Of a stretch of DNA of 64,000 nucleotides, positions 7,165 to 52,273 are shown in pieces (position 1 is the stretch's first letter; each line of letters opens with the position of its first letter). A program made the position numbers and the translations under genes. Origin of the DNA: a virus; the IMG/VR virus record IMGVR_UViG_3300012582_000194, positions 1 through 64,000 of that record. The stretch is one strand, 5' to 3'. The notes beneath the pieces were generated by a model, which saw nothing but the letters and a program-made list of their open reading frames with translations, did not search any database and was not told where the DNA came from.

Positions 7165-7454
7165 AAATTTTCTCAGTATTTAAGAATTTCTTCGGAAACA
7201 TAAAAGAAGAATTTGATGAAATCGAAAATTTATTCATCAAAGAAGAAATAACTTGTATTAACAAGTTTAAAGAGATGGTTTCTTCTATAACGTTGATAGA
7301 GTCCTTTGAAGTTATTGATGATGTTTTAAATCTTACAATTATAACAGAAGATGAAGATGATGAAGAAGAAGTAATTCAATTCAGTGCAAGTCTTAAAGAA
7401 GTTGAGCTTAAAGATTATTATAATAAAATAGTTAAAGAAATAATAAACGCATGA
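7161..7454 (+). CDS. Acidic hypothetical protein, 97 aa
   Basis: A short acidic protein with an EDEDDEEEV run near residue 70 and amphipathic helices elsewhere. It overlaps both neighbours by 4 bases (ATGA), between the HAD and rhomboid genes. No known domain; it could partner the rhomboid protein but nothing shows this. Confidence 0.5.
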   Translation: MKIFSVFKNFFGNIKEEFDEIENLFIKEEITCINKFKEMVSSITLIESFEVIDDVLNLTIITEDEDDEEEVIQFSASLKEVELKDYYNKIVKEIINA

Positions 7455-8299
7455 GATTTTTAAAAAACTTATTCAAAAGAAATCCAAATAGATTTAAGAA
7501 AACTAAATGGGATGATTTAATTGCTGATAATCCATTCTCTAAAAAGAATAAAAATAGTGCAAATTCTTATTCAAATAGCATACCTAAATCAGTGCTTCAA
7601 ATTATAGGAATAAACGTAGCAGTATTTTTACTATTATGGATTTGTGAAATTGCTTTACCTATGACATGGTATCAAATGATTGTTAAAATGCTTGCTGTTC
7701 CTACAGATATAGAAATATTATATAAACCTTGGACTGTAATAACATCAGCATTTACGCATTTATCTTTTGGTCATATATTAGGAAATATGTTAGCTATATT
7801 TTTCATAGCACCTTATTTCAAAATGGCATTCATAGATAAACAAATATGGAATTTATATTTATTGGGACATTTTGTAGGGATATTCTTTTCAATAGGAATT
7901 AATATTCTTATATTTGATGATCACGGGATGGCTTTAGGTGCATCGTGTGGTGTGTCAGCATTAGTAGCTGGTGTATGTTTTAAATTTCCACAAATGCCAG
8001 TGAATATATTTTTTATTAACACAACACTTAAATGGTTAATTGCTATTTATGTAATACAATCAATATTCATGTTATTCTCACCTAATATGGTTGGTGGTAT
8101 TGGACATTTATTTGGAATGTTATTAGGTGTATTGTATGTTCATTTATTAACAAAAAATATAGAAATAGGAAAAATATTTGATTCAATTACTAAATTAAAA
8201 ATTAAAAAAACAGGTAAAGGTATTAAATACGTTTCAATGTATAGTGAAAAATCAGAAAATTCAATTAAAAATATAATTAACAAAAACTTCAAAAAATAA
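7451..8299 (+). CDS. Rhomboid-family intramembrane serine protease
   Basis: 282 aa with about six TM segments from residue 53. The family hallmarks are all present: HLSFGHILGNM (H103, H108, N112), GASCGVSAL with the catalytic serine S165, and GGIGHLFGMLLG with the partner histidine H219. The residue after the serine is Cys where Gly is usual (GxSG), a mild departure. A 50-residue basic cytosolic N-terminus precedes the core. Rhomboids cut TM segments of membrane proteins; a phage copy might process host or phage envelope proteins. It overlaps a zinc peptidase gene downstream. Confidence 0.88.
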   Translation: MRFLKNLFKRNPNRFKKTKWDDLIADNPFSKKNKNSANSYSNSIPKSVLQIIGINVAVFLLLWICEIALPMTWYQMIVKMLAVPTDIEILYKPWTVITSAFTHLSFGHILGNMLAIFFIAPYFKMAFIDKQIWNLYLLGHFVGIFFSIGINILIFDDHGMALGASCGVSALVAGVCFKFPQMPVNIFFINTTLKWLIAIYVIQSIFMLFSPNMVGGIGHLFGMLLGVLYVHLLTKNIEIGKIFDSITKLKIKKTGKGIKYVSMYSEKSENSIKNIINKNFKK

Positions 8300-9366
8300 T
8301 GAGCGAGATTAAAGAATTGTTTTTAAAACTTACGGAATATACTATACCATTCGGAAAAGAAGAATCATTAGAGCCTATTTTACCAACTGGATTTAAAAGA
8401 GATAAAATAGGAAACTATTATTATGAAATAGGCGAATCTGAAACTCTTTTTACAACACATTTAGATACTTATTCAGATAAGTATGAAAAAGTTGTTCATA
8501 AATTTTATAAAAAGGATGGTACACCTTGCGAAAAAGACGAAGCTGATATTATTGCCACTGATGGAAAAACTATTTTAGGTGGCGATAATAAAGCGGGTTG
8601 TACTATTTTAATCAATATGATTAATAATAAAATTCCAGGCGTTTACTATTTTTTTTTAGGAGAAGAACCGATTTTATCGGGGGGCGTTTGGGGAAGTACA
8701 CAAGCATTAAAAGCAAATCCAGAATACTTTAAAAGATTTAAAAGAGCTATTGCATTTGATAGAAGAGAAATGGGATCAGTTATTACTCGTCAAATGGCTA
8801 GAAACTGTTGTTCTACAGAATTTACAGATGCAATTATAAAAGAATTAGCTGGACAAGGATTGTCATTTAAAAAGGATCCAACGGGATATTATACTGACAG
8901 TGGTGTTTTTATGGATGTAATACCAGAAGTAACAAATCTATCAGCAGGTGTGTGGAATGAACACTCACCCAAAGAATTTTGCTCTATAAAATATCTCGAA
9001 AAAGTAGCCGAGGCGGCTTTACATGTTAATTGGGAATCATTACCTGTTGTTAGAAAAGCATTTAAAAATGTACCAATTAAAAAAGGAAACTTTGTAACAA
9101 AATTTGTAGATGTTAAAAAAACAAAGAAAACATTCAACATTATAAATAATTTTCTTGAAATGTATGGATATTTATGTATTAATGTAGAAGATTATGAACC
9201 TGAACACGAAATGGTTTTCTCACAATGGCATAATGAATCTGAAATTATAATAAAATTTAAAGACGATTCTGTTATTTACGAAGATCAAGAAATACCAGTA
9301 AAAGATTTTATTTTGATGTTAGATCCAGAAGCAGACTTAGAAGAAATATTTAATCCTGAAAAATAG
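8299..9366 (+). CDS. M20/M28/M42-type zinc aminopeptidase-like protein
   Basis: 355 aa. A full co-catalytic zinc set is visible: THLDT (H54, general-acid-site D56), GGDNKAG (bridging D96), LGEEP (E122/E123), FDRR (D154) and WNEHSPKE (H222). The family hydrolyses N-terminal residues or small peptides in the cytosol. The C-terminal 100 residues are an extra acidic domain. Start overlaps the rhomboid stop by one base, so the two proteases are co-translated; together they could degrade peptides released in infection (inference). No signal peptide. Confidence 0.8.
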   Translation: MSEIKELFLKLTEYTIPFGKEESLEPILPTGFKRDKIGNYYYEIGESETLFTTHLDTYSDKYEKVVHKFYKKDGTPCEKDEADIIATDGKTILGGDNKAGCTILINMINNKIPGVYYFFLGEEPILSGGVWGSTQALKANPEYFKRFKRAIAFDRREMGSVITRQMARNCCSTEFTDAIIKELAGQGLSFKKDPTGYYTDSGVFMDVIPEVTNLSAGVWNEHSPKEFCSIKYLEKVAEAALHVNWESLPVVRKAFKNVPIKKGNFVTKFVDVKKTKKTFNIINNFLEMYGYLCINVEDYEPEHEMVFSQWHNESEIIIKFKDDSVIYEDQEIPVKDFILMLDPEADLEEIFNPEK

Positions 9367-20879: not shown

Positions 20880-22625
20880 ATGAATCTTAAATTTATTGAG
20901 GTTAAATTTCAAACATTAAAGACTGAAATTAATGACTTTATCAAGAAAACATACAATAAATCCGATGTTTTATTATCAGCAAGCGATCCTTACGGACATA
21001 TTTTAGGTGCAATTGAGATGATTTTTAGTTCATCTTTACTTTATTTAAAGAATGTAACTGCTCAATTTGATATTAACAACCCAAAGAATACTAATGGTAA
21101 AATGATAAAAGCCTTAGCGAGAGTTGGTGGGTATAATCCTGGGAGAGCTATAAGTGCTACTGGTACTCTCACATTACAATTAAAACCTGGCATAGATATT
21201 TTAGAAGAAATTCCTGGTGGTGAAATCACTATTTTACATGGATCTAAAATAACTAACAAAAGTAATAATTTAGATTATTATATTGATTTAGGTATAGAAA
21301 AAGCGTCTTACTTATTGAGTCATAATACTAAATATTTTTTACCTGTGGTTCAAGGTAAAGTAGAGACATTTCCATTTACTGGAACTGGTGAACAACTACA
21401 GTCATTTTCGGTAGATTTGCCTAATGGGCAATCACCTGAACAATTTAGAATAACTGTTAAGGTTGATGGACAAATATGGAGTATAAAAGACCATTTATAT
21501 GATATACTTACAGATGAAGAAGCTTGTGTTGTACGAACTGGTATTAATGGTGGATTAGATATTTATTTTGGAACAGGGTTTTTTGGAAAAATACCAGGTA
21601 TAAGTGATGAAATAGAAGTTAGATATGTTGTGTCAGATGGTTCATTAGGTAATATTCCACATAAATTAGTTAATGATTGGACATTTACTGACGAACTTTT
21701 TGATAAATTTGGAACACCTGTTGATATTGAAAAAAACTTTAATGTATTTATAGAAAATGAAGTGAGTATGGGTGGCGATTCAGAAAATCCATTATTTACA
21801 AAAGCTATATTACCACATGTTTCAAGAAACTTTGTTTTAGCAAGACCTGAACAATATATTTTCCATTTAAAGAGATTAAATGTATTTTCTCAAATTGATG
21901 CTTATACAACAGAAAAAGGAACTGATAATGATGATGGGAATGATAAAGATGATTCTGTAGTATATTTATTTTTAATTCCTGATATTGCATTATTTCTACA
22001 AGGTGGTACATCATATTTTGATTTAGATTTAAATGCTTTTATTTTAGAACAATTTGAAAAAGATAAAGTTGAGAGATATTTAAGAACACAAGGTACTATA
22101 GGTTTAGGTAATGCTGTTAAAATTATTGATCCTATAATTAGGAAATATATTATTAATATTCATTTAAGAATTTTTGAAGATGCTAATGAAGATAATATTA
22201 GAAGTGAAATTAGTAGTAACCTTAGCTCATACTTTGGAACTTTAGTAAGGAGAGGTATTATTCCTAAATCAGACATTATTAGAATTATAGAAGAGATTGA
22301 TGGTGTTGACTCAATAGATTGTAGTTTTATATCGGAATCAAATGAATCATATCATTTAAGCTTTGAAAAATATAAACAAAGTATAATGAGAAACAATCCA
22401 AAAGCTAATCCATTAACTATCAAAATGACTGGTTATGATCCAAATAGAGTAATTGGATTAGATCCTAAACTTGGTGATATTCTTTATAATAAGAATGAAT
22501 TACCTATCATAAGAGGTGGATTTAGAACTAGAAATGATATTTATTATAATGAAACACCAAACAGTAAAGGACTAAGCTCAATTAACATAGAAATACTTGG
22601 CATTAGTAAAAGAACGATGTTTTAA
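20880..22625 (+). CDS. Baseplate wedge protein, gp6/baseplate J-like
   Basis: 581 aa. The region about 60-400 has the baseplate-J pattern: an early helix with a DPYGHILGAI turn, ALARVGGYNPGRAISATGTL (about 77-96), a beta domain (FRITVKVDG, YFGTGFFGKIPGISDEIEVRYVVSDGSLGNIP), then the C-terminal part IVNIHLRIFED and IRIIEEIDGVDSID. This fits T4 gp6 and P2 gpJ wedges that build the baseplate arms. A late box precedes it, and the next gene starts 3 bases after its stop. The position within the wedge is inference. Confidence 0.75.
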   Translation: MNLKFIEVKFQTLKTEINDFIKKTYNKSDVLLSASDPYGHILGAIEMIFSSSLLYLKNVTAQFDINNPKNTNGKMIKALARVGGYNPGRAISATGTLTLQLKPGIDILEEIPGGEITILHGSKITNKSNNLDYYIDLGIEKASYLLSHNTKYFLPVVQGKVETFPFTGTGEQLQSFSVDLPNGQSPEQFRITVKVDGQIWSIKDHLYDILTDEEACVVRTGINGGLDIYFGTGFFGKIPGISDEIEVRYVVSDGSLGNIPHKLVNDWTFTDELFDKFGTPVDIEKNFNVFIENEVSMGGDSENPLFTKAILPHVSRNFVLARPEQYIFHLKRLNVFSQIDAYTTEKGTDNDDGNDKDDSVVYLFLIPDIALFLQGGTSYFDLDLNAFILEQFEKDKVERYLRTQGTIGLGNAVKIIDPIIRKYIINIHLRIFEDANEDNIRSEISSNLSSYFGTLVRRGIIPKSDIIRIIEEIDGVDSIDCSFISESNESYHLSFEKYKQSIMRNNPKANPLTIKMTGYDPNRVIGLDPKLGDILYNKNELPIIRGGFRTRNDIYYNETPNSKGLSSINIEILGISKRTMF

Positions 22626-22627
22626 CG

Positions 22628-24499
22628 ATGAAGTATATTAAGAATTTTAGTGATAAACTTTTTGAGAATCTTATTTTAGAAAAAGAACTTATCATAAGTG
22701 ATAAATTAAAAGATATTCTTAAGAAAATGAGGCATCCATTTGCATCATTAATATTATCTAAGCTTGGTGAAGATTTAGTTGATAGTTCATATATAGATAT
22801 TGACAAAGAACCTGGTATGATTAATTATATTCCTTATAATAAAGAAATTGACTTCCATACTAAGAAAGAGTTAACTGAGCCTGATAAGTGGATTAAAAGT
22901 AGAACTAAACAGCCTATAGCTAGAGTTATTAAACCAATATTATCAAAGTTGAATATAATATTCAACGAATCAGATATTGAAAAATTTGTAAATGAATATA
23001 AGTCATTACAGAAACCATCTAAATTTATTTTAGCCGAAGGTAAAGATATAATTAAATATTATTCAGAAAGAAACTATTCACATGATAATGAAGAAAGTTC
23101 GAGTTTAACACATAGTTGTATGAGATATGATGATGCTGGAAAATATCTTTCAGTATACGTAAATAATCCAAATGTAAAATTAGTTGTAATGCTTGATGAA
23201 TATAATAAAGTTTCTGGTAGAGCAGTATTGTGGTTAAATGCAACAGCAAATGACAAACCGTGTATTTTTATGGATAGAATCTATACCGCTAAACAAGCAT
23301 ATGAAGAATCATTTAAAAATTATGCTATAAGTAATAATTGGTGGTTTAAAGTTTATCAAAGAGCATCTGATGATGATATAACTAATGGTAAAGATTCGAT
23401 AATTAATGCAAAAATTAGAGTTGTTATACCAAATGATGATTGGAATCATATTAAAAAACCATATATGGACACACTTCCATATTTAAAAGAGGAGTTTGTA
23501 AATAATAAATTTGCATATACATTAAGTAATTTTGCAGGAAATACTGATTGGAAAGAAATGTGGACAAATCAAGACGGTGCTTGTACAAAAAGTACTAATT
23601 ATGAAAGTTCTGAAATGGAAATGAATCTAATTTCATCTGAATTAGAATTAGATATTTCTAAATTAGTGCCACAAAAATCAAAAGGTGTGTATCAATACGG
23701 AAATGCTAAATATTGGATAACTCCTTTAGAAAATGCTAAGAAAAGATGTGTAACTAAATTAATGAAAGATGATAATTGGAAAAGATTTGCTACTGTTAAA
23801 ACTTTATCAAAAAGATATGACTATTTAATAAGAAATCAAGTTAGTGAAAAAGTTAAGGATGATATAAAAGAGTCACCAGAAAAATATATTAAATTATTAT
23901 ATGATACTTTAACTCCTTTTTATTGGGTGAGTAGTTTAACATCAAATATTGTAGATGGTGATAAAAAGGAATTCCTTTCTATTATATTAGAAGGTTTATT
24001 AGTAAATAAAACTATTTATAATAAATTTATAAATTTAATGCATTCTGAATTATATACATTTTATAATTTTGGTGAAATCATTGATAATTTAAAAGAATTT
24101 TCAAAAGAAAATGTAACTAAAATTGTAGACTTATATAATGGACATGATACAAAAAGATTGAGACAATTTATAATTGATAAATTTGAGAACAAAAATAAGC
24201 CAGATAATAAATTTAATAAATTTGTTGTTGAAACTTTACCGAGAGAGCAATTAATAGCTGAATTAGATGATACTCTTTTCATTGAATATAATTATATTCA
24301 AATTGCTAAAATAAATTCTGAATTTTTTGATGAAGAGAAATTTATGCAAGATGTTTATAAAGATGTTAAAAATTCTAAATATAGTTTAAAATGGACATGT
24401 GAACTTTTAGCAAGATTTGAAGAAATTAGAGCAAATGTTATATCTACTGATGGTGTTGAGATTATTATTTCAGGAAAATGTATTTACAGAATAAAATAA
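22628..24499 (+). CDS. Unknown phage protein family, paralog 1 (SCMR/MDRIY family)
   Basis: 623 aa, one of three paralogs within 6 kb. Shared core: HSCMRYDD (C164), a strand pair around YLSVYVNN-PNVKLVVML, GRAVLW (about 197-202), FMDRIYT (about 214-220), NWWFKV (about 237-242) and DITNG. The invariant Cys, Arg and Asp suggest an enzyme or binding pocket, but no known fold is recognised. The N-terminus MKYIKNFSDKLFENLILE resembles T4 capsid-targeting peptides (I-L-E as a possible cut site). It directly follows the gp6-like gene. Possibly an injected or virion protein (inference). Confidence 0.7.
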   Translation: MKYIKNFSDKLFENLILEKELIISDKLKDILKKMRHPFASLILSKLGEDLVDSSYIDIDKEPGMINYIPYNKEIDFHTKKELTEPDKWIKSRTKQPIARVIKPILSKLNIIFNESDIEKFVNEYKSLQKPSKFILAEGKDIIKYYSERNYSHDNEESSSLTHSCMRYDDAGKYLSVYVNNPNVKLVVMLDEYNKVSGRAVLWLNATANDKPCIFMDRIYTAKQAYEESFKNYAISNNWWFKVYQRASDDDITNGKDSIINAKIRVVIPNDDWNHIKKPYMDTLPYLKEEFVNNKFAYTLSNFAGNTDWKEMWTNQDGACTKSTNYESSEMEMNLISSELELDISKLVPQKSKGVYQYGNAKYWITPLENAKKRCVTKLMKDDNWKRFATVKTLSKRYDYLIRNQVSEKVKDDIKESPEKYIKLLYDTLTPFYWVSSLTSNIVDGDKKEFLSIILEGLLVNKTIYNKFINLMHSELYTFYNFGEIIDNLKEFSKENVTKIVDLYNGHDTKRLRQFIIDKFENKNKPDNKFNKFVVETLPREQLIAELDDTLFIEYNYIQIAKINSEFFDEEKFMQDVYKDVKNSKYSLKWTCELLARFEEIRANVISTDGVEIIISGKCIYRIK

Positions 24500-24501
24500 C
24501 T

Positions 24502-24509
24502 AATATATA
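24502..24509 (+). promoter_or_regulatory. Late-type AATATATA box
   Basis: AATATATAG, 21 bases before the ATG at 24531, in the 31-base gap between paralogs 1 and 2. Confidence 0.5.
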
Positions 24510-24530
24510 GTGAGTAAAACTTAAAAGATT

Positions 24531-26564
24531 ATGAACGAATTAATTCAATTAATTAACATTTTAAATGGACTTGTAGAAGAAAAAGAAATCGTTCTTGGTC
24601 CAACTCTTATCAAAAAATTAAAGGCTATGGATAGCCCTATTGCAAAATTCATTTTAGATTGTGCTGTTGAAAAACTTGACTTAGACGTCGATTATTCATT
24701 TGTTGAATTTGATGAACAAGATGCAATGGTATCTCTTCTTAAAAATAGATGGGAGGATGAAGTCGGCAAAGATATATTCACTTCAAAAAGAAGAGAAAAG
24801 ATGAAAATAAGCCGTTTAATTATGGCTTTAACTGTTAAGAAAGGTATTAAATTTCCAGAAAAAGAAATTGAAGAATTTGTTAATCAATATAAATCTTCAC
24901 AAAAGAAATTTGAATTTAGAGAAATAGAAGGTAGAGAAATAAAAGAATGGTATAATGAAAGAAATTATACTAATGATAGGGATGGGAATCCGTCTCTACA
25001 CAATTCTTGTATGAGATTAGCAGAGACACAAAGCTACTTTACTGTTTATATGGAAAGCCCCAATGTTAGATTATTAGCATTGATTGATAATGACACAAAT
25101 AAATTAATGGGTAGAGCTATTGTATGGAAAAATGCACATATGGATGGTGTTGGTGAAGTAACTTATATGGATAGAGTTTATACCGCTAAACAAGCATATG
25201 AAAATTTATTTAAAGATTATGCTAAATCTAAAGGTTGGTGGTTTAGAGTAGTTCAAACAAATCAAGATATGACAATTACAAATGGTACTGAAAAAAAATC
25301 AAACTGGATAATTGATTGTCAAATTGCGGATTTAGATTGGTCGCGTTATAATAAACCTTATATGGATTCATTAAAATATATGACATATATGAGAAAGAAT
25401 GGAAGATATGTTCCTGTAATGACAAATAATTCAAATAACTATAAAGAATTGTGGCAATCAACATCAGGTTCGGGTACAACAAATAATAATTATGTCAGTG
25501 AGCACGAAAGACTACTATCAGTAGCTAGAGCTTTAGGTATTGATCAAGCATCATTAAAAGTATCCGATAATGATGAAAAAATAATAGTGCGTGATGATGG
25601 TGTTGATTTTGCATCATATTCTATGCAAGAATTGCAATTAGTTGGTGCTATAAAATTTATAGAAAAAGATAAAATAAGAGACATCGATCCTGCCAATTAT
25701 ATAAACATTATTCCTAATCGTGAAATTTGGGAAAAACTTAGTGAAATGTCGGTTGATGTTATAGTAGATAAATTAGTAGAATTTGAAAAATATATTAATA
25801 AACAAAATGGTGTTAATTTATTAATTGATATTAGTACAGATGAAGAAATTCTTAGACAATTCAAATATTATTTAAATAAAAGATATGATGATGTACTTCA
25901 TTATTTAATGAAAAATGCTAAACCAAATTTAGAAAGATTTGTAGAATCTGCATCGAAATCAAAAGTAAATAAGAAAAAAATAGTTAAAGAAAGTATAGAT
26001 GATGATAACGATGAAGATGATGTTAAAAATGATACTAAAGGTGTGATACAAAAAGGTGATATAAATGAGCCAGTATCATTAGATAACTTATTAAAACAAA
26101 CAGAAGTTAATATTCAACATATGGTGGACTTTTATGAAAAAAGTAAAGCTAACAAAGATGTATGTATATCATTTTTAAAACATAAAATTGCTCGTTTAAA
26201 AATAAGATTTTTCTTGAAGAAATTTGGTAAAGATGATGATAAAAGAAAACGTTTGGTTATAGAACAAGTTATACCAGCATTATCAAACAGTATGCAACCA
26301 TTAGAGTTTGTAAAAAATTATCTTAAAATTTCTAATAAAGAATTCTTCAAAATAATTAGTGAAAATTTAAATAGAAATATTATTGAAAGAGTTGCAATGA
26401 ACACTCTTCAAAATAATCCTGACGTTAGAAAAGAACTATTATCTATCGATAATAGAGAATTGAGAAGTGGTAATTACTATATCTATAAAGTTAAAGATGA
26501 TGATAAAAAGGAAGGTGATGTGGAAATTAAGAAACGAGGACCAGGCAGACCCAGAAAAAAATAA
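24531..26564 (+). CDS. Unknown phage protein family, paralog 2 with C-terminal AT-hook
   Basis: 677 aa. It carries the same core as its neighbours: LHNSCMRLAE (C160), GRAIVW, YMDRVYTAKQAYE, GWWFRV and ITNG. It is longer at the end: after the shared NYYIYKVK it adds an acidic linker and KKRGPGRPRKK (about 667-677), a textbook AT-hook with the GRP core that inserts in the minor groove of AT-rich DNA. An acidic, Lys-rich insert (about 480-520) is also unique. Binding to the AT-rich phage genome is a reasonable inference. It ends inside a 60-bp palindrome. Confidence 0.7.
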   Translation: MNELIQLINILNGLVEEKEIVLGPTLIKKLKAMDSPIAKFILDCAVEKLDLDVDYSFVEFDEQDAMVSLLKNRWEDEVGKDIFTSKRREKMKISRLIMALTVKKGIKFPEKEIEEFVNQYKSSQKKFEFREIEGREIKEWYNERNYTNDRDGNPSLHNSCMRLAETQSYFTVYMESPNVRLLALIDNDTNKLMGRAIVWKNAHMDGVGEVTYMDRVYTAKQAYENLFKDYAKSKGWWFRVVQTNQDMTITNGTEKKSNWIIDCQIADLDWSRYNKPYMDSLKYMTYMRKNGRYVPVMTNNSNNYKELWQSTSGSGTTNNNYVSEHERLLSVARALGIDQASLKVSDNDEKIIVRDDGVDFASYSMQELQLVGAIKFIEKDKIRDIDPANYINIIPNREIWEKLSEMSVDVIVDKLVEFEKYINKQNGVNLLIDISTDEEILRQFKYYLNKRYDDVLHYLMKNAKPNLERFVESASKSKVNKKKIVKESIDDDNDEDDVKNDTKGVIQKGDINEPVSLDNLLKQTEVNIQHMVDFYEKSKANKDVCISFLKHKIARLKIRFFLKKFGKDDDKRKRLVIEQVIPALSNSMQPLEFVKNYLKISNKEFFKIISENLNRNIIERVAMNTLQNNPDVRKELLSIDNRELRSGNYYIYKVKDDDKKEGDVEIKKRGPGRPRKK

Positions 26565-26617
26565 AGTAATAAAAAAGCCCTTTAAAATTTTAAAGGGCTT
26601 TTTTATTACTTTATTTT
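26558..26617. repeat. 60-bp perfect palindrome with bidirectional terminator
   Basis: Every base from 26558 pairs with its mirror to 26617 (30-bp arms). The core has GCCCTTTAAAA/TTTTAAAGGGC with A6 and T6 tracts, a strong two-way terminator. It covers the stop codons of paralogs 2 and 3, which converge here. The extra 10 bp beyond the tracts are not needed for termination and suggest copying. Confidence 0.93.
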
Positions 26618-28426
26618 GTATATGTAATGTCTGAGAATATTGTGTTCTCGCTCATCAATTGATAGTAATTTTTTTCTTTGCACATCTTTAATTTGATTTT
26701 CAATCAAATCTACTAAATTAATATATCTCTCTATTTTTTTATATTTATCTGTTGTAAATGATTTTTCAATAAAATCTAATACATCAATACATAATGATGA
26801 ATTTACCAACATATCAATAATATTAGAATCAGTATAATCATCTAAAGATATTTCACTAAAAAATCTTTGTTTTATTTCGGTAGTACCATATTCTTCTAAA
26901 AACATTCCAACTACTTCATATAAAGCTTTTCTTGAATTAGTATTATCATTATCATAACCATATTCAATAATTTTACAATTTAATTCATTAAACTCATTAA
27001 GCTGAGTCCAACTACTAAATAGGTATGGTGCAGATGTTACAACTTGTGAAAAACCAAATTGTGAATGTTGAAATTTATCAGTAAGTCTTCTATAATAATC
27101 TCTATTTGTTATAAATGGTCTGACTAAATTTAAAAATTCTTCTCTGCTTAATTTTGTGAAAATTCTTACGTAGTTATTTTTATCTTTCTTTAAAGTTGAC
27201 CAAAATTTATCCTTATTTTCACGAACATATTTAATTAATTCATTTTTATAATTTCTGTAAAAGTCACTACTTAAATTTGGAAACTTTAACTGAAATTTTA
27301 CAATATTTTCAAATGGATTTTTTAAAAATATACTTTTTACAGAATAATTTAATTCATCACCGCTATTAAAAATTTGGTATGATTCTTCACCAATTGAATA
27401 TGTATTATTATCAATTTTTATAAAATCATTAATATTTTTGTTAAGTACTTGTGCAAGAGAAAATGGTTTATCCAATGGATGTGAATAACTATGATTAATA
27501 ACAACATTACTTTGGTGATCACCAAAGCTTTGTCTATGTGCAAGAGTATCGTTATTATTTGTTAAAAATAATCCATATGTACCATCACTCTTAGGTAAAA
27601 ATTTCATTAGTCTTAGTGAATCAACATAAGGACTTTTAACATTATAATTATAGTTAACATCTGTTCTAATTTCGGCTATTAAAAGTGGTTTTAATTGTTG
27701 TGTTATACCATTGGTTATTTCTGGATTTTCATTACCTTGTCTTATTTTAAACCACCATCCTCTTGCTGTAGCATACTGTTTGAATTTTTCAACAATTGAA
27801 TCATTGATAGAATAAATTCTATCCATATAAGTTCCAACAGCACCATTAATTAGAATGCCATTCCAAATTAACGCTCTTCCTTCAACTTTTCCATCATCAT
27901 TTAATAATGCAAGAACACCAACAACTTGTGAATTTTCCGTATATAAAGTGAACCATTCTTGACATTTATCAAATCTCATACAAGAATTCAATAGAGAACA
28001 CCCAGATGATGAATATGATGAGTTTTTATTATATGTACTTTCATTGTAATATTTACCAAAGTCTTTACCGTGAGATAATATAAAATTACCATTATCTCTA
28101 GCACATCTATATTTATTTACAAATATTTCAATTTCGGCATCTGTAAATTCAATATTTTTACTTTGTAATATTGATCTTACGACTCTACCGATTTTAACAC
28201 TTGTTCTAACTTTAACTTTCCATTTTTCTTCCTCTGATAATCCATCTTCTTTATTTATGGGAAGATAGCTGAATATTGTAGTATCTGTTTCGGAATCAAT
28301 GTAGCTAAATTTTAAATCCAATACATCTTCTTTGGAATTCAAATCCAATAAAATAATAGAAATTTTATCATTAATACGTCTCAAAGTAGAAATTAATGAA
28401 TTTCCTAAAATAATTTTCTTACTCAT
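26606..28426 (-). CDS. Unknown phage protein family, paralog 3
   Basis: 606 aa from the ATG at 28426 (MSKKIILG). A TTG at 28489 would add 21 residues (IYEIFYQILIQ...) that roughly parallel the N-termini of the other paralogs, so that start cannot be excluded. The core is LLNSCMRFDK (C149), GRALIW, YMDRIYSIND, GWWFKI and ITNG, then a helical C-terminal half ending RHYIYKIK like its sisters. It is the only copy on the minus strand and the only one with a host-type promoter (28561-28591). Confidence 0.7.
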   Translation of the reverse strand: MSKKIILGNSLISTLRRINDKISIILLDLNSKEDVLDLKFSYIDSETDTTIFSYLPINKEDGLSEEEKWKVKVRTSVKIGRVVRSILQSKNIEFTDAEIEIFVNKYRCARDNGNFILSHGKDFGKYYNESTYNKNSSYSSSGCSLLNSCMRFDKCQEWFTLYTENSQVVGVLALLNDDGKVEGRALIWNGILINGAVGTYMDRIYSINDSIVEKFKQYATARGWWFKIRQGNENPEITNGITQQLKPLLIAEIRTDVNYNYNVKSPYVDSLRLMKFLPKSDGTYGLFLTNNNDTLAHRQSFGDHQSNVVINHSYSHPLDKPFSLAQVLNKNINDFIKIDNNTYSIGEESYQIFNSGDELNYSVKSIFLKNPFENIVKFQLKFPNLSSDFYRNYKNELIKYVRENKDKFWSTLKKDKNNYVRIFTKLSREEFLNLVRPFITNRDYYRRLTDKFQHSQFGFSQVVTSAPYLFSSWTQLNEFNELNCKIIEYGYDNDNTNSRKALYEVVGMFLEEYGTTEIKQRFFSEISLDDYTDSNIIDMLVNSSLCIDVLDFIEKSFTTDKYKKIERYINLVDLIENQIKDVQRKKLLSIDEREHNILRHYIYKIK

Positions 28427-28560
28427 GTTTGATTTAAATTGAATTAATATTTGATAGAATATTTCATATATACTATTGAATATCAACAATATATATTATT
28501 GACAATATTAAATGAGCCTTTTTGATAATTTAAAATACCCATTAATACCTTTAATTTTAA

Positions 28561-34923: not shown

Positions 34924-36432
34924 ATGATGGAATACTTCTTTAATTATGACTATTTTAGAATAAATGAAGCTGATGATAATAAAGGGCTTAAAGCAAGTCT
35001 TAATAATAATATTGGAAATAATGTATCTAATGTAGATAATACAAAAATAGCTGATGCGCCAATAAATACTGCTGGTACAGATGGTACATCGGGTACTAAT
35101 ATAATTGAAAGTACTGATGAGACATCTTTAAATAATAAAATTCAAGAATGGAATACATTATATTCACAAGCATTTAAATTCCAAAACGATATGCCCAAAG
35201 ACGTTAACTCTAAAGTTGATTTAACTAATATAGGACAAAAGAACCCTAATAATGACACTCAAATAACAGATTATAATAATAGTTTATTAGCTAAAGTAAG
35301 GGATGGTATAATTAAAATAGCAGAATTACTTACAAGTAAAAATGGTGACAGCTTTATGTTTAAAGGTAGGACAATAAATATAGTTGGACACACAAGTTCA
35401 CCAGCTAAACCAGAATATAATATAATTTTGGCAAAAAGAAGATCTGATTTTGTTATTAATGCTATAAAAAGTGCAATGAATACGATATTAAAAAATTCAG
35501 CGAAACCAGAAGATATTGTATCATTTGTTTCTGCACCTAAAGGAGAAACAGAATTAATTATCAGAAATGATACACAAAGTGGTGATGCTATATTAAATAC
35601 TAATAATAAAGAGATTGAGGGTAGCATTGATGTTAAACAATACCAAACACCAGAACAAAAGCAGGGATTGAATAGAAGGGTTGTAATAGGCTTAGATAAG
35701 TTTCCTATTAGGTATAATCAACCAGAGAAAGAAATTATTTCTAGCAGTACTGATATACCTATTATAAATCCTACGGATGTTAAATTTAATACCGATAGTT
35801 ATATCTTAACATCAAAAAGCGATTCTATTTTAACTAATTTTGCGAATGAAATTTTAGAAGCTATTAAAAATAATAGTAATTTAACTGACATATATATTTG
35901 TTCGCATTCACATAAAGCTAAAGAAGAAGATCCTAATGATATAATAGATCAAGAAAATAAAATATTCTACATAAGTTTAAATAGAGCGGTATCGGTTAAA
36001 AACTTTTTACAAAACAGGGGAATAAAAATCAAATATCACTTAATTCCATGTTCATATTTAATACCTAAAGGAAATAGCGCAGACGAAAATAAAAGAGTTG
36101 AAATATATTTCAACGAAAATAATGATGTTAAAAAAGCTAAAAATGCATTTAATCAATTATCTAAAAAATATGGTATTGAAAATAATAATGGTGAATATGA
36201 TGCTGATAGAATACTTACCAATAAAGTTTTAAGAAAAGATATCATCACTAATATAATTGCTTGTATGAAAGAAGGTGTAAAAGAAAAATGGATACCTTTA
36301 GAATTATGGTATGATGAATATGGTACTAATGAAGATAATTTAAAGGCATATAAGAAAGAGTTGGAAAATACTGTATCTAAATATGGTAAAAATAAATACT
36401 CGGTAGAAGATTTTGTCTACATAAAGAGATAA
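34924..36432 (+). CDS. Protein with two OmpA-like domains and capsid-targeting-like N-terminus
   Basis: 502 aa. Domain 1 (about 115-265) has INIVGHTSS and a later GLNRRVVIGL; domain 2 (about 275-405) has VKFNTDSYILT, DIYICSHSHKA, NRAVSVKNFLQNRGI and ADENKRVEIYF, the OmpA/MotB peptidoglycan-binding pattern. The classic D...R pair is kept in the second copy. The N-terminus MMEYFFNYDYFRINEADD offers an I-N-E cleavage site like T4 capsid-targeting peptides. It lacks a signal peptide, so virion delivery rather than export may place it near the cell wall (inference). Confidence 0.7.
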   Translation: MMEYFFNYDYFRINEADDNKGLKASLNNNIGNNVSNVDNTKIADAPINTAGTDGTSGTNIIESTDETSLNNKIQEWNTLYSQAFKFQNDMPKDVNSKVDLTNIGQKNPNNDTQITDYNNSLLAKVRDGIIKIAELLTSKNGDSFMFKGRTINIVGHTSSPAKPEYNIILAKRRSDFVINAIKSAMNTILKNSAKPEDIVSFVSAPKGETELIIRNDTQSGDAILNTNNKEIEGSIDVKQYQTPEQKQGLNRRVVIGLDKFPIRYNQPEKEIISSSTDIPIINPTDVKFNTDSYILTSKSDSILTNFANEILEAIKNNSNLTDIYICSHSHKAKEEDPNDIIDQENKIFYISLNRAVSVKNFLQNRGIKIKYHLIPCSYLIPKGNSADENKRVEIYFNENNDVKKAKNAFNQLSKKYGIENNNGEYDADRILTNKVLRKDIITNIIACMKEGVKEKWIPLELWYDEYGTNEDNLKAYKKELENTVSKYGKNKYSVEDFVYIKR

Positions 36433-36970: not shown

Positions 36971-37672
36971 TTATTTGTCTTTTTTATATGTTCTACTTTT
37001 ATCAAGTGTGTAATGCCTCATTTTCAATAAATCAGAATCTTTTCTATGTTCTTTTTTAGGCTCTTCTGTATCAATTTTAATTCCTGATGGTTCTAATTTT
37101 CTATCAATTGCATCAAATGCTGTAATATTAAAATTTGGTAATTTAGTTTCAATGTATTCACCTTTCATCATTCTAAATAATACTTTTGTAGAATCCGAAA
37201 AAGGAACTACTTTAAATTCTAATTTTTCTGGAATTCTAATGCTTGAAAGATTTTCTAACTTACATTTGATTATTATTTTATCAAATTTTTCTATTTCAAA
37301 AAGAACTTTACACAAAGCTTTTACAGCTTCGGTTGCATACCCTTTCCCAGCATATCTAGTATCAATCCAATAACCAATCTCTTTTCCCTTACTCTTTCCA
37401 GCATTCCAATGATGCACTCCAATATTACCAATAAAATTATTATCTTTATCAAAAATAGCATATTTATTATCTGAATCCAAATCAAAATTACCTCTGAATC
37501 GTCTCACAACTTCTATATTCCCATCAATATCCGTAGGGTGACTTTTAACCCATAGCATCCAAGGTTCAAATTCATTTATACTATGTTTGACTGCATCCAT
37601 ATACTTAGAAACGTCCATTAAATCATAGCACCTAATTACGAGTCTTTCGGTAATAATTTTATATGTTTTCAT
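36971..37672 (-). CDS. GNAT acetyltransferase, RimJ/RimL-like
   Basis: 233 aa. The RimL-type core runs to about residue 170: ITERLVIRCYDLMD, FIGNIGVHHW, and the acetyl-CoA loop EIGYWIDTRYAGKGYATEAV (about 98-117). It is followed by an unrelated basic tail with an FNITAFDAIDRKLEP segment. Such enzymes acetylate N-termini of ribosomal proteins or small toxic amines; the target here is unknown. It is the middle gene of the XRE-GNAT-CAP minus-strand cassette. Confidence 0.8.
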   Translation of the reverse strand: MKTYKIITERLVIRCYDLMDVSKYMDAVKHSINEFEPWMLWVKSHPTDIDGNIEVVRRFRGNFDLDSDNKYAIFDKDNNFIGNIGVHHWNAGKSKGKEIGYWIDTRYAGKGYATEAVKALCKVLFEIEKFDKIIIKCKLENLSSIRIPEKLEFKVVPFSDSTKVLFRMMKGEYIETKLPNFNITAFDAIDRKLEPSGIKIDTEEPKKEHRKDSDLLKMRHYTLDKSRTYKKDK

Positions 37673-43517: not shown

Positions 43518-44725
43518 TTATTCACCATAGATACCATTATCTACAACACCATTTAAGAATATACCACCTTTCCATAATCCATTTGAAAATAATCCCATAT
43601 CAAATATACCACCCAACCATGTTCCATTTGACCAATGTGAAACCACAAATGGGCCTTCTACATAACCTAAGTTAGTTAATGCTATTGATTCTTTAGTAAA
43701 CGAAATTTCATTTACTAATGTATAATCATAACAAGAAGGAAGAGGTGTTGGTGATGGTGGTGAAACCGATGGCACTAAATTTGTTGTGATTAGAATTGTA
43801 TAATCATCAATTATATCTATAACTTCATGTTTTACTGGTTTAGTATTATACCCCAAATCTTCTGCTTTAGAATCAACAACATCTGTAATAATTGGATTAC
43901 CTATTATCGTAAAACTATTCTTTAATCCATTTATTGTTTTAAAGTAGTGTGGTTTCTTGAATTTTATTTCAATTGTTCCACCATATACTAAATAGAAAGA
44001 TTCTATTTCCATATCAGATAACCAATAACCATTATACCATACGCCATTATTAAAACGTCCCATTTTCCAAATACCACCATAGAAATCACCTTTATCCCAC
44101 ACACCGTTATACCATGTAGAATTTGCATAATTAATGGATGCTATAGTTTTACCATTTACATCAATAGTTAATCCTGAATGGAATTCACCACCTTTCCACC
44201 AACCATATTCCCATATTGCTTTATGTAATAAAGATGCTTTAGTACCAAATCTTGATTTAACTCTAACTGTTTGATCCCAAATACCATTTTCCCAAACACC
44301 ATTTTCAAAATCTCCACCAAGCCATGTTCCATAATGCCATATAGACGGGAACATTGATTCTGAGAAAGTTCCTGATAACCATGTTCCTCCAAAAAATTCA
44401 CCCCCCATAAATGTACCATTGTACCATGTACCATCAAGAAATTGACCATTGTACCATAATCCATCATATCTATTTCCTTTATTAAATGTACCATTGTACC
44501 ACGTGCCATTATAAAAATTACCTGAACCAAATAATCCTTTATACCAAATTGAATTTGATGCATCATCACCTGGTATAACTTCAATTAAGTTAAAATTATT
44601 AATTGTTCTATATGAATAAAAATCACCTTTTATCCATTCAATATTAAATGCTCTACCTGAATACCATGTACCATCTTCCCAAATTCCACATAACCAATCA
44701 CCTTGATACCAAACAAGTCCTTTAT
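43518..44725 (-). repeat. W-x-x-G repeat solenoid in the giant fibre protein
   Basis: Codons near the 3' end encode over 20 imperfect copies of W-Y-N-G-x-F-x-x-G-x-(W/F) and W-x-x-G-x-F units, with breaks. The spacing of about 10 residues suggests a stacked beta structure exposing Trp and Gly. Confidence 0.75.
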
Positions 44726-47700
44726 CATTTTCTCCAATAATAGCATTGCGCATATCAGCATTTAATATCCAGTAATATTTCTTCTCTAGTTGTTGTAATG
44801 TTAAACCATCGACTAAACGATAATTATACTTTTCAATGTCAATATTTTTTAATATTAATCTATTCGAATCAACACCTAAATTTTTAGGCTCTACTGATAT
44901 TGCTTTCTTAAATATTTTATCAATACCTAATTCGTGTAAATCAACTGGGCGATAATATAAATTAGGATCAGTTTTCCAATCTATAATATTTATATTCCAA
45001 TCGCTATCATTATCTAAATACACAACAGCAGATATATTATTTCTAATGTTAACATCATTTAAAATATATGGTGCGTATGCTGTAGCAGTCTTAGTTTGAT
45101 TAAAATATGAATTATTAAAGAATTCTACACCATTTGTTCCACCATTTGGTAATGGGAACATTAAATCATCTGTAAATTCTAAGTCTTGACTTATTTCTTT
45201 TAGTGTATTTCTAGTTCTTAAAGAAACTGTCGTAGATGAATCATGTAATTTATTTTCTAATTCATAATTAAAATGTAATACATATCTCTTTTTATCAGGA
45301 TACTTAGAATAAGATATTATTTCTATTTTAGATAAATATGTTCTTCTAACTGATTTAGCACCTCTTACAATATCAATGAATGTACCTGGTACAAAATTTA
45401 ATGCATCTATTAAATCATTACCTATATAAATTTTATTACCTACAATAGTAAATTCTTTGAATTCATTTAGATTATTTCTTAATAAATTATTATATGTGAA
45501 ATTATGTGATGGCAAATTAAACGAGTAATTTTCATCGAATATTGGATTAATATTATTCAAGAATGATATTAAATCATACTTAGGACCATACACGACATCT
45601 TCACTATAAGCTATAGGATAGATAGTTTCTGAACCATTAATACCAACTTTTAAATAAGATTCTAAATTGTAATATTTAGTTAAATCATTTACAAATCCTT
45701 CGACATAAATATTATCAGATTTATTAACATCGAGTATATATGACTGTGCTAACAAATGTTCAGAAAATACTTCTTCTAAATGAAGTAAATTACCATTAAA
45801 ATAATTTAAGTTTTTTAATAATAATTTAGAGCCATAACGAGCATCTTCTATAATATCTTGTTCAAATAATGTCCATAAAGTTATCGTTTGATTAACTACA
45901 TTGTAATCTCTAACAATAAAATTATCACTCAATATTAATATACCACATTCAACTTGTATATCATTTAATGTTGATGTTGGTAATACATTTTCAGCTTCGT
46001 AATTATTAATAGTTAACAAAACAACATTCTTAATATAATCTATAAGTGTTAAAACATTTCTTGTTGATAAGCTATTTGTATTAATATTTAAATATCCTAC
46101 TTTTAAGAATCCAATATCATTTATCTTAACGTGACTATCCATATTAAATTCATTATATGGTGTATTTATGTTTAATTGTATATCATAACCATTTTGAATT
46201 GATAAAGATTTATCACTTTTTGTTAATGTTAGTTTAATAACATCCCCTTGTGTTGTAGCAAATGTAAATGAATCAAGTTGAATTTTAGTTGAATAACTTC
46301 TTTCGTGTAAGGCAGAACCATTATAAGAACCTGAAACAAATGTTTCACCACTTGTACTATTAACTAAATCATTTACAATTCTAAAGAAATTAGTTCCATT
46401 AATAGTATTAGTTAAGAAGTTAGTTCCACTAGTACTTTCAGTAAATAATCCTTCATTAAATTCACCATTCCATAAATAATTATCTAAGTATCCTGATGTT
46501 GAAGCTGCTGAAATTCTCTTGTTATATTTTATCCAAGGTTCTATTTTAGCGAATTTATCTAATCCACCGTCCAATACCCTACGATTCAAATAGAAGTAAT
46601 CTTGAAATGCTAAGAAGTTATTTTGATTATTGACTGTACCATAATCAGTAAATTCAATATAATCATCAGGTAAGAAATAATAACATGCAAGCAAACTCTT
46701 AGGAAAATATGTTTTAGGTACTTCAAAACCACCTTCTTCTAAATGAAGATTGATCTTTCTTCCTAAATAATAATCAAGGAATAATAACTTTGGTTGGAAT
46801 ATTTTATTTAAATTTTGTTCTTCAAATGCAGAATTATCTTCAACATAATATAATAAATCGCCATATCCAGATGTACTACTATCTACTTTGAATAAACTTT
46901 TTCTTATTGCATTTACTCTATCACCAACCGTAAATAAATAATTATTATTAATATCAATTTTATTTAAAGGTGAGTCATTTGTAAAGAATAAATCAATTTC
47001 TATATCATGTATATTACTATTAGTATCAACAACAATCCTATCATATTCAAAAGAATATATATTTTTATTACTTAAAATAAATGCTCGCTTCTCATTTGTT
47101 TCAAAATTTATATATGGTTTTATTTCTCTCCAATCTGTTAAATTGTTTGTTTTAAAGAAATTTAATGTAGGTTCTTTGTAATTTAATTTAGTAACCAATT
47201 CTAACTGTAATAACAAATCTCTATCGCCGCAAATTAAGAATTTATTATCCCCTAAATATTTAACATCATTTAATGTTTGTTGATATTGATCAGCATCCAT
47301 TGATGTTTTCATATCTAAATGAATAGAATTATTCAAATCGGAATCGAGTATTTGTTTATCTATTGTATTTAACTCCAATTTATTTAAAATTTTATCAACA
47401 CTCCAAATAAAATCTTTCCTTGTTAAATGTACCAAAGTTCCACCATTACCTAATAGTATAGCACTATTAGATGAATATATTAATACTTTTTGCCAATCTC
47501 TATTTTTTATTTCTTCTGGTAAAACAATTGATTCGAATGATTCACCGCCTGTAAAAGTAGCAAGAATAACACCACTATCACCTGATAGTAATCCATTTTT
47601 ATTTCCAAAAAATGATATAGAATTTAAATTTTGACTTACACCAGTTTCTTGAACTGCCCATGAAATACCATTATCAATACTTTTTATTAAAATACCATTC

Positions 47701-50700
47701 TTTCCAATCATCCATATAACACCTGACCAAGATGGAACTACATAGCCTTTATCTCTTAGTGAGTCTTCTATAAAAACTTCAATATCAGAAAAATCATTTT
47801 TATATAATAAATTTTGTAATTCTATTGACCAAGAAGTTGAACTATTATCTTTAAATAGTATTCCAGAATCTCCAATAATTAATCCATCAGTATCTTGTTC
47901 ATATGTCAAACAATCTTCCCATAAATTGTAATCGTCTGATGTATTTTTCATAGATGATAAATATAATTTATTACTTCCACTTTGTGAAAGAATACTAATT
48001 TTAGTATTTGCATCTGATCCTGTAAATGAATCTATCGCTATAGGAGTTTTATTACTCGTCCATTTTTTAGTCCACGGTAAACAAGTCCAAGAAAATTTAT
48101 TATCTCTTTGTAATTTAAACCATGTTATTGATTTATTTAATGGGTTTAATATTGTGATAAACTCTTCATTATTAACAGTATGGTATGTTAAATCAACATT
48201 ATATGCTAACTTAAGCATAGTTGCATTACCTTTATTATCAATAAATCTTTTACTTGCTCCTGTAGTATTATTATATTGCCATAATTGAATTTCATCGTAA
48301 ATAGTAGAAACTAATATTAAAACTTTATTCTGTCTATTATAAATTCCGTGTATAGTTTTTAAATTTTTTGTCCATAAACTATTATTTAAATCTAAATTTA
48401 AGTTATCTCTGTAAATATTTAATCCATCTATAATAAAGCTATTTGTACCATTAACTAAGTATTTATTACTTTTTAATGGATAAGTACCTATGTAATCAAG
48501 AGTTTGTAATCCCGATGTAGTATTTAAATATTCATCTGATAATAAATGTATATTACCATTAATATCCAATAAGTAAATATTTAGTAAATAATTTGAAATA
48601 TCGGAAATTGTTCCTTGACTTTTACCGTAAATAGTTTTTATTTGTGCTATATTGTTATTAAATAATGACGATGTTGAATTACTACCATTATTGTAAATAT
48701 TATCATCACTATTATATAAATATGGAAGACTATTAACTACAGTAAAATCTTCTATAGTGCCAGTTCCATTATGGAAAATATTTGTTGATGAATATGTAGT
48801 ATTAAATTTAAATATTTTATTGTTTTCTAGAAAATATAAATCATAATTCTCTAAATAAATTGATTTTATATTATTAGATGTGCTATAAATTTTATAAATT
48901 TTTTCATCATTTAAATCAATTCTATAAATAACATCTTTTATACCATTAGTACCACTAGCAGAATCATTTTCTAATACAAATAAATTATTAGAAAATTCTT
49001 GTATTTGTGATACGCTTTGTATAGTAGGTAATATGGCATCCCTATTTAAACCACCAAAAAAAATATTGTTTGTGGTAGTATTAGATATTGTTTCAAGATG
49101 ATATGAATTTTTATCATCTAATTTCCAATATCCCTTTAAATTAGAATAAATAACATCCGTTGGATTTATAGTTTTACCCATTCTCGAATTTAACTGTGAT
49201 GGATTTAATTCTTTATCCCATATTCTAAATTGAGATATATCACCTCTATAATTAGGGAATTTAAAATCAGATTTGCCTATAAGACAAGTATCAAGTATTA
49301 AATTTTTAATTGATAATGGTGTTTTAAATGAATTTTTTTGATCTACTATAGTACCAACTAAAACTGGTGAAATTTCATTTTCTTCTTTAAAATATAATTT
49401 ACCTGTTGCTTTATTGGCTGTATATTGCCAAGTAAATGCAACACTTAATGATACATTTTCTCTAATTACTCTATTCGCTTTTAATTTAATAAAATTAGTA
49501 TAATTTTCAGACATTACTAAATATGGAAATCCATCACCATCTTTTAAAATAAATGACATATAACTTAGTACTGGTAATTGAAAAGAAAAACTAAATCCAA
49601 AAAACGAATATGTGAATGTTTTTGATTTTTCACCAAAATAAAATACAGGCATTTGATTTCTTATACCATTTGGTTTAATCTTAAATTCTACGGTAAATGA
49701 ACCATTTCCGTTTATAATAGTAGACATAGGAACTTTTGACATATCGGAATAATCATTAATACCATCATATGTTCTATAATCACCATTTGAAATTTTAGGG
49801 ACTAATAAATTAAAATTTGATCCACTTATACCATCAAGTAAATTAGTTATACGAGAATTTTTCAAATATAAATTGGTGCTATTTCTGTATATGTTAACTT
49901 CAAAATCATCGTACCATGTATTTGGAGAACTTGGTGGATTCCATGCATAAGTATTAACATAAATATCACTCATATCAGCAGGTGTACCATCTTCATTATA
50001 AAGAATATTAGGTACTGTAACAGTTACAGTTAGTTTTTGGTAATTAAATCCTGTTCCTGTATATTGTGCAGGAAACCACGTTTGCGTACCACCAGCGATA
50101 CCAGTAGTGCTGGCATAATGAAAATTCCCGTTAACATTAGTTAATGAATTAACTAAAAGTCCAGCAGCAGTATTGCTACTTGCCCATATGGTTGATTGAA
50201 TCACATCACCACTTTTAACATGACGATTAACACCTGGTCCATATTGATCACTACCCAATTTAATAGCATTTGAAGAATTAGGATTTATTGAATAATTTAC
50301 ATGTGTATTATCTATTTTTGATGAATAATTATCATTATGAAATAATTCATAATCACCACCATCAAAACTAGTTTTTATGCTTGTAATTAGAGTTGTAATT
50401 GGATCTTTTATTTCCCAATCATTTATTTTTTCTTTACTGAAGAAATTTAATTCATAATCTTTATCTTTTTGCCAACCCAATAAATTAATTAAATTAGTTT
50501 CATCTATACAAAATTCTTCTGGTTTACCATTTACTAAATATGAAATATGTATAGTAGAACCGTCAATATCTACTCTTAATTTTTTAATATTACCTATAAC
50601 ATTTTTAATTGTATAAGTACTTCCATTATAAAACAAATTAACTGATGTGGAATTTATAAAGAAATAGTATTCATTTCCATTATTTAAATATTCAAATTCT

Positions 50701-52253: not shown

Positions 52254-52273
52254 CAAAATTTGATATTTTGAAA

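Follow-up and report, generated by a model that had tools for sequence, protein, structure and literature searches.

Organisation of the locus

The window is a stretch of 64,000 nt (positions 1 to 64,000 of the IMG/VR virus record IMGVR_UViG_3300012582_000194), in which three large paralogous genes and the following features were located:

8299 to 9366, + strand: MH-clan metallopeptidase, of the family of the partner gene described below (phrog_4191 'peptidase', E-value 3.8e-51)
20880 to 22625, + strand: gp6-like baseplate wedge gene (phrog_219, E-value 2.4e-16)
22628 to 24499, + strand: paralog copy 1, 623 aa (ORF and alignment)
22628 to 22681, + strand: leader of copy 1 resembling a capsid-targeting sequence, MKYIKNFSDKLFENLILE, with a possible L-x-E prohead-protease site at its end
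22889 to 23485, + strand: conserved core of copy 1, spanning roughly residues 88-286, predicted to be GNAT-like (HMM match, invariant positions, and fold)
24531 to 26564, + strand: paralog copy 2, 677 aa (ORF and alignment)
24783 to 25382, + strand: conserved core of copy 2 (HMM match)
26564 to 26611: 20-bp bidirectional terminator-like hairpin between the convergent copies 2 and 3
26606 to 28426, − strand: paralog copy 3, leaderless (ORF, alignment, and AlphaFold model)
27608 to 28213, − strand: conserved core of copy 3 (HMM match)

Over 12 kb around the trio, the sequence was 100% identical to LR756504.1, an uncultured phage of 636,363 bp that is among the four largest curated Mahaphage genomes, all of which have predicted Bacteroidetes hosts (PMC7162821).

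The first-pass annotation had described three large paralogs, one of them on the opposite strand, with motifs at matching spacings across about 600 residues. All three ORFs were found and are full-length paralogs, with copy 3 on the opposite strand, and the motifs NSCMR/HSCMR, GRA..W, MDR.Y, WWF(K/R), and TNG stood in register in the alignment. The start of copy 3 was placed at the ATG at 28426, the same frame being open up to a TTG at 28489. With a profile built on their common region, all three copies were recovered at E-values of 1e-65 to 1e-70, plus relatives in more than 100 contigs, which excludes chance similarity. The copies could be aligned over their whole length (copy 1 being 32% and 25% identical to the other two), but strong conservation was limited to the N-terminal ~300 residues. 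An N-terminal helical domain and a core of about 200 aa are common to the three; the C-terminal halves scarcely aligned, except for one short C-terminal motif.

The wedge gene, for which the phrog_219 match bore out the earlier assignment, ends 2 nt before the start of copy 1, and the two genes are likely to be on the same transcript. Copy 2 is separated from its upstream gene by 31 nt. Copies 1 and 2 form one run with the wedge gene, closed by the hairpin, and copy 3 is convergent. The terminator scan returned 12 terminator-like sites vs. 1.8 expected, and the promoter scan (71 found vs. 77 expected) was uninformative.

The translation of the metallopeptidase gene showed an HxD, D, EE, D, H metal-ligand pattern, and a rhomboid-family intramembrane protease (7451-8299, + strand; PF01694, E-value 8.9e-20) is encoded directly 5' of it. 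Further genes in the window encode an OmpA-domain protein (34924-36432, + strand; PF00691) with the leader-like N-terminus MMEYFFNYDYFRINEADD, a RimJ/L-like canonical GNAT acetyltransferase separate from the trio (36971-37672, − strand; PF13302, E-value 1.6e-21), and a 2,912-aa ORF with a TTG start and repeated WYNGxW/GTWYNG motifs (43518-52256, − strand), which is probably a tail or adhesion protein.

Distribution and conservation of the SCMR family

Sequence searches against Pfam, PHROG, NCBIfam, PADLOC (defence profiles), and the PDB gave no match for the window copies, in line with the earlier statement that no named family fits them. To judge from these searches, the family, here called SCMR, is a phage family so far undescribed. 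Two bacterial-genome scans, each with one short pattern, returned no bacterial relatives. Profile searches of IMG/VR loci yielded 161 and later 194 distinct cores; a 36-sequence alignment was too diverse to serve for the locus scan. Members were found in many viral contigs of 100-500 kb (more than 100 large-phage contigs), with tandem arrays of at least three genes in the IMG/VR loci L098, L109, L117, and L158. The crAss-like Cellulophaga phages phi38:1, phi40:1, and Calle carry one copy each, and Thermus phage TSP4 also has a member (hhalign probability 99.5).

Eight columns (Y, S, C, R, W, Y, P, D) were invariant wherever filled (191-194 cores). The key residues of the copy 1 core are C164, R198, W202, D216, R217, Y219, P278, and D281, with D216 and R217 conserved in 193/194 and 191/194 cores, respectively. 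As the invariance of the eight positions holds across 194 distinct cores at only ~25-30% identity, these positions are likely to mark an active site or a ligand site, and the proposal that the Cys, Arg, and Asp serve catalysis or a ligand pocket is upheld at that level.

The tails of family members range from 63 to 480 aa, and most bear little resemblance to one another. One recurrent C-terminal type consists of DnaJ-like CxxCxGxG zinc-knuckle arrays with many units (L061, L070, L087, L022, and L206), which also end one megaphage peptidase (L271:1479-3602). A second consists of VWSEYHSENFYKDDAVYSE-like repeats (L133, L023, L031, L093, and L136; L038, i.e., phi40:1 gp37; and L244, i.e., KpV48_08) and is common to megaphage relatives, crAss-like proteins, and KP34-like proteins.

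Predicted fold of the core

The first-pass annotation had suggested structure prediction followed by a structure search. In the AlphaFold2 model of copy 1, residues 20-320 mostly had a pLDDT above 90, and the first 320 residues of copy 3 were modelled with a pLDDT of 88.5 and a pTM of 0.80. Foldseek searches of the PDB with both models gave GNAT-type hits: the best 50 were all GNAT N-acetyltransferases or GNAT-like N-myristoyltransferases. The best E-values for the two models were 1.3e-3 and 8e-3; since no hit fell below 1e-3 and TM-scores stayed below 0.5, the similarity to GNAT is only partial. The order of secondary-structure elements (strand, helices, three strands, helix, strands) fits GNAT. 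The CoA pyrophosphate loop R/Q-x-x-G-x-G/A was absent from the SCMR alignment, the junction of strand 4 and helix 3 of the core reading DRIYTxxDSDxxxFK instead. GNAT profiles of Pfam and NCBIfam gave no match to SCMR, whereas the canonical GNAT of the window was matched. The models thus point to a distant GNAT-like transferase that may bind its donor non-canonically, and the invariant Cys together with the missing CoA loop would be compatible with aminoacyl-tRNA or acyl-carrier donors.

In a Foldseek search of the viral structure library BFVD, an SCMR model gave a fold match to the KP34-like group (E-value 1.4e-4, probability 1.00), with hits to proteins of Klebsiella phage KpV48 and Caulobacter phage Lullwater at 10-12% identity. 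KpV48_08, which has homologues in 336 phage records, contains SCM, ARA, R-x-Y, and PYLD in the same order as the SCMR family. Profile similarity between the two was marginal (hhalign probability 17), and kinship was retained because fold and gene neighbour agree. The phrog_6980/phrog_4191 pair of KP34-like phages thus resembles SCMR in the SCM / RA / R-x-Y / PY-x-D order, the peptidase neighbour, and the fold match, but differs in that its sequence similarity is marginal. The family probably reaches the KP34-like autographiviruses.

A recurrent metallopeptidase partner

The MH-clan peptidase (phrog_4191), which gave weak matches to Pfam M28/M20/M42, directly adjoins the SCMR gene in crAss-like phages as well as in KP34-like, Vibrio, and Pectobacterium phages; in TSP4, it sits between two SCMR genes. 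The same adjacency was found in megaphages and several IMG/VR contigs, often with leaderless members. By tblastn, the tallies of both genes matched in Klebsiella (231/231), Vibrio (42/42), and Escherichia (10/10) phages, the records being closely related. The pairing is not universal: no obvious SCMR-type neighbour accompanies the peptidase of Brevibacillus phage Jenst. In LR756504, both genes are amplified (8 peptidases vs. 14 SCMR copies); none of the 8 adjoins the trio of the window, and the nearest was found 13 kb off.

Flanking domains are shared as well. Six peptidases bear the SCMR N-terminal domain (hhalign probability 95, E-value 3.6e-8), and single peptidases of LR756502 and LR745206 carry it with weak similarity (E-value 1.5e-3). 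One LR756504 peptidase has a CxxCxGxG zinc-knuckle tail like that of two SCMR members, at an E-value of 5e-13 that cysteine-rich composition may inflate. Adjacency in unrelated phages together with shared flanking domains is good evidence that the SCMR gene and the peptidase act in one pathway, as far as sequence and gene order can indicate. M20/M28/M42 peptidases are unmentioned in the jumbo-phage survey. The first-pass annotation had mentioned neither this partner nor the GNAT-like fold or the occurrence in further groups of phages.

Copy number in megaphages

LR756504 contains 14 family copies, and 7, 18, and 8 were counted in LR756502, LR756501, and LR745206, respectively. A tree of 107 cores placed the 14 LR756504 copies (membership taken from locus ids) in one clade (ultrafast bootstrap 98, SH-aLRT 89), which indicates a lineage-specific expansion; the copies of the other megaphages were scattered over the tree. 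The earlier claim that the gene is amplified in this phage is supported, and more strongly than by the three copies first counted.

Such an expansion with divergent tails would also be expected of a non-enzymatic anti-defence protein or decoy, in which a degenerate GNAT-like fold binds a host ligand (e.g., CoA, aminoacyl-tRNA, or a defence signal) and has been diversified in an arms race. The missing canonical CoA loop agrees with this, and a precedent is T4 IPI, which is packaged and inhibits a restriction enzyme (PMC9026906). However, about ten near-invariant positions are kept in every copy, no decayed paralog was present among the cores, and the peptidase partner points to chemistry, so that we regard a decoy as fairly unlikely.

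N-terminal leader and probable packaging

SCMR members of large phages mostly start M(I/L)KKYxDFLxES...LLLES. In the T4 capsid-targeting sequence (CTS), targeting depends on residues 4 and 7 and processing on residues 8 and 10 (PMC9026906). A pattern with T4 spacing, Y/F-x-x-F-I/L-x-E, was present in 55% of 164 distinct SCMR N-termini (which are related to one another, making the p-value nominal), whereas the rate was 4.6% in other ORFs, 1.5% in shuffles, and 0.3% in an internal segment. A second site, L-x-E-(S/A/G/N/K), followed within at most 16 residues in 66/99, vs. 0/99 in the control segment. An S77 prohead protease was matched in LR756504 (PF03420, E-value 4e-6; weak, below the curated cut-off), and the match was likewise weak in the other three megaphages.

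Copy 1 has a divergent version of the leader, which fits the class MKYxKxFxx.LFE / MKYLKKYxxFLNE. Throughout LR756504, leaders of the forms MKYLKKYxxFLNE, MKHLKRFxxFINES, and MKYFKNFDLFEKR occur on many unrelated genes; those with MKYLKKYxxFLNE (pieces L252-L264) make up a possible list of packaged proteins of the 636-kb phage. Copy 2 has a short, weak possible leader (MNELIQLINILNGLVEE / MNELIQLINILNGLVEEKE), and copy 3 begins MSKKIILG (xIILGxxL) where leadered copies would have their mature N-terminus. Packaging had been proposed earlier from the closeness of copies 1 and 2 to the wedge gene. For the family, packaging is supported by the T4-type leader rather than by that closeness. Copy 1 is plausibly packaged, copy 2 doubtfully so, and for copy 3, which has no leader, packaging is unlikely.

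Given the leader and the late-gene neighbourhood of copies 1 and 2, the proteins could instead be structural or scaffold components of the head core, directed to the prohead to fill or shape a very large head, with the invariant site as a non-catalytic pocket that is structural or stabilised by metal; T4 has abundant internal proteins, most of which are not enzymes (PMC9026906). We consider this unlikely, as leaderless members of small crAss-like, Thermus, and KP34-like phages lie outside the structural module, beside peptidase or DNA-metabolism genes, and the polar invariant residues have an enzymatic look. That the leader, found on so many unrelated LR756504 genes, serves another phage-wide purpose (a phage compartment or translation control), with the family active only in the infected cell, is quite improbable in view of the matched T4 CTS spacing, the L-x-E sites that follow, and the S77-like protease, weak as its match is.

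Proposed role

We infer that SCMR proteins may be injected or early-expressed host-takeover enzymes resembling acyl- or aminoacyl-transferases, which would act with the peptidase/deacylase; to this reading we give about equal chances of being right or wrong. The N-terminal helical domain would be an adaptor, the GNAT-like core would hold the Cys/Arg/Trp/Asp/Arg/Tyr/Pro/Asp site, and the highly variable tail probably picks the target. The T4-type leader would dock the protein in the prohead core and be removed by the S77 prohead protease, after which the mature protein would enter the host along with the DNA. Once inside, it may move an acyl or aminoacyl group onto a macromolecule of the host, either protein or tRNA, and the phage-encoded MH-clan aminopeptidase/deacylase may work on that substrate or on the product. 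Members without a leader, copy 3 included, would be produced after infection.

More tentatively, and with clearly less assurance than for host takeover as such, the two genes may constitute a two-enzyme system in which a transferase-like family lacking the CoA loop writes, and the MH-clan peptidase trims, a modification on host macromolecules, sometimes through common N- and C-terminal targeting modules. Megaphages would then deploy many tailored, injected copies, and small phages a single early-expressed pair.

Among known systems, T4 Alt enters the host by injection and modifies its RNA polymerase (PMC9026906; PMC5512222). Alt and IPI-III resemble SCMR in their short N-terminal aromatic-x-x-aromatic-aliphatic-x-Glu leader with a protease site, and a host-takeover role is proposed here for SCMR; they differ from SCMR in the ADP-ribosyltransferase activity of Alt and the small size of the IPs, and homology between the mature proteins would not be expected. 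Rac (LUZ19 gp28) is a phage GNAT through whose action the alpha subunit of the host RNAP is cleaved (PMC7552054). It has the fold to which SCMR is partially similar but is a 157-aa canonical GNAT with an acetyl-CoA pocket and no leader; homology to SCMR was rejected (hhalign probability 1.3). Polyvalent proteins contain GNAT domains for which packaging and injection by phages are predicted (PMC5512222); these domains are RimI-like, whereas SCMR matched no Pfam or NCBIfam GNAT profile.

In the largest phages, the majority of genes have no assigned function. The SCMR family accounts for 14 genes of one 636-kb genome and also occurs in culturable crAss-like and, probably, Klebsiella phages. With the recurrent peptidase partner and the packaging signal, a 'hypothetical protein' becomes a set of testable claims, i.e., that it is packaged, cleaved, Cys/Arg/Asp-dependent, and peptidase-coupled. 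If these are true, the family would add new chemistry beside the few known injected host-takeover enzymes (T4 Alt, polyvalent proteins) and would represent an unrecognised host-takeover toolkit in megaphages.
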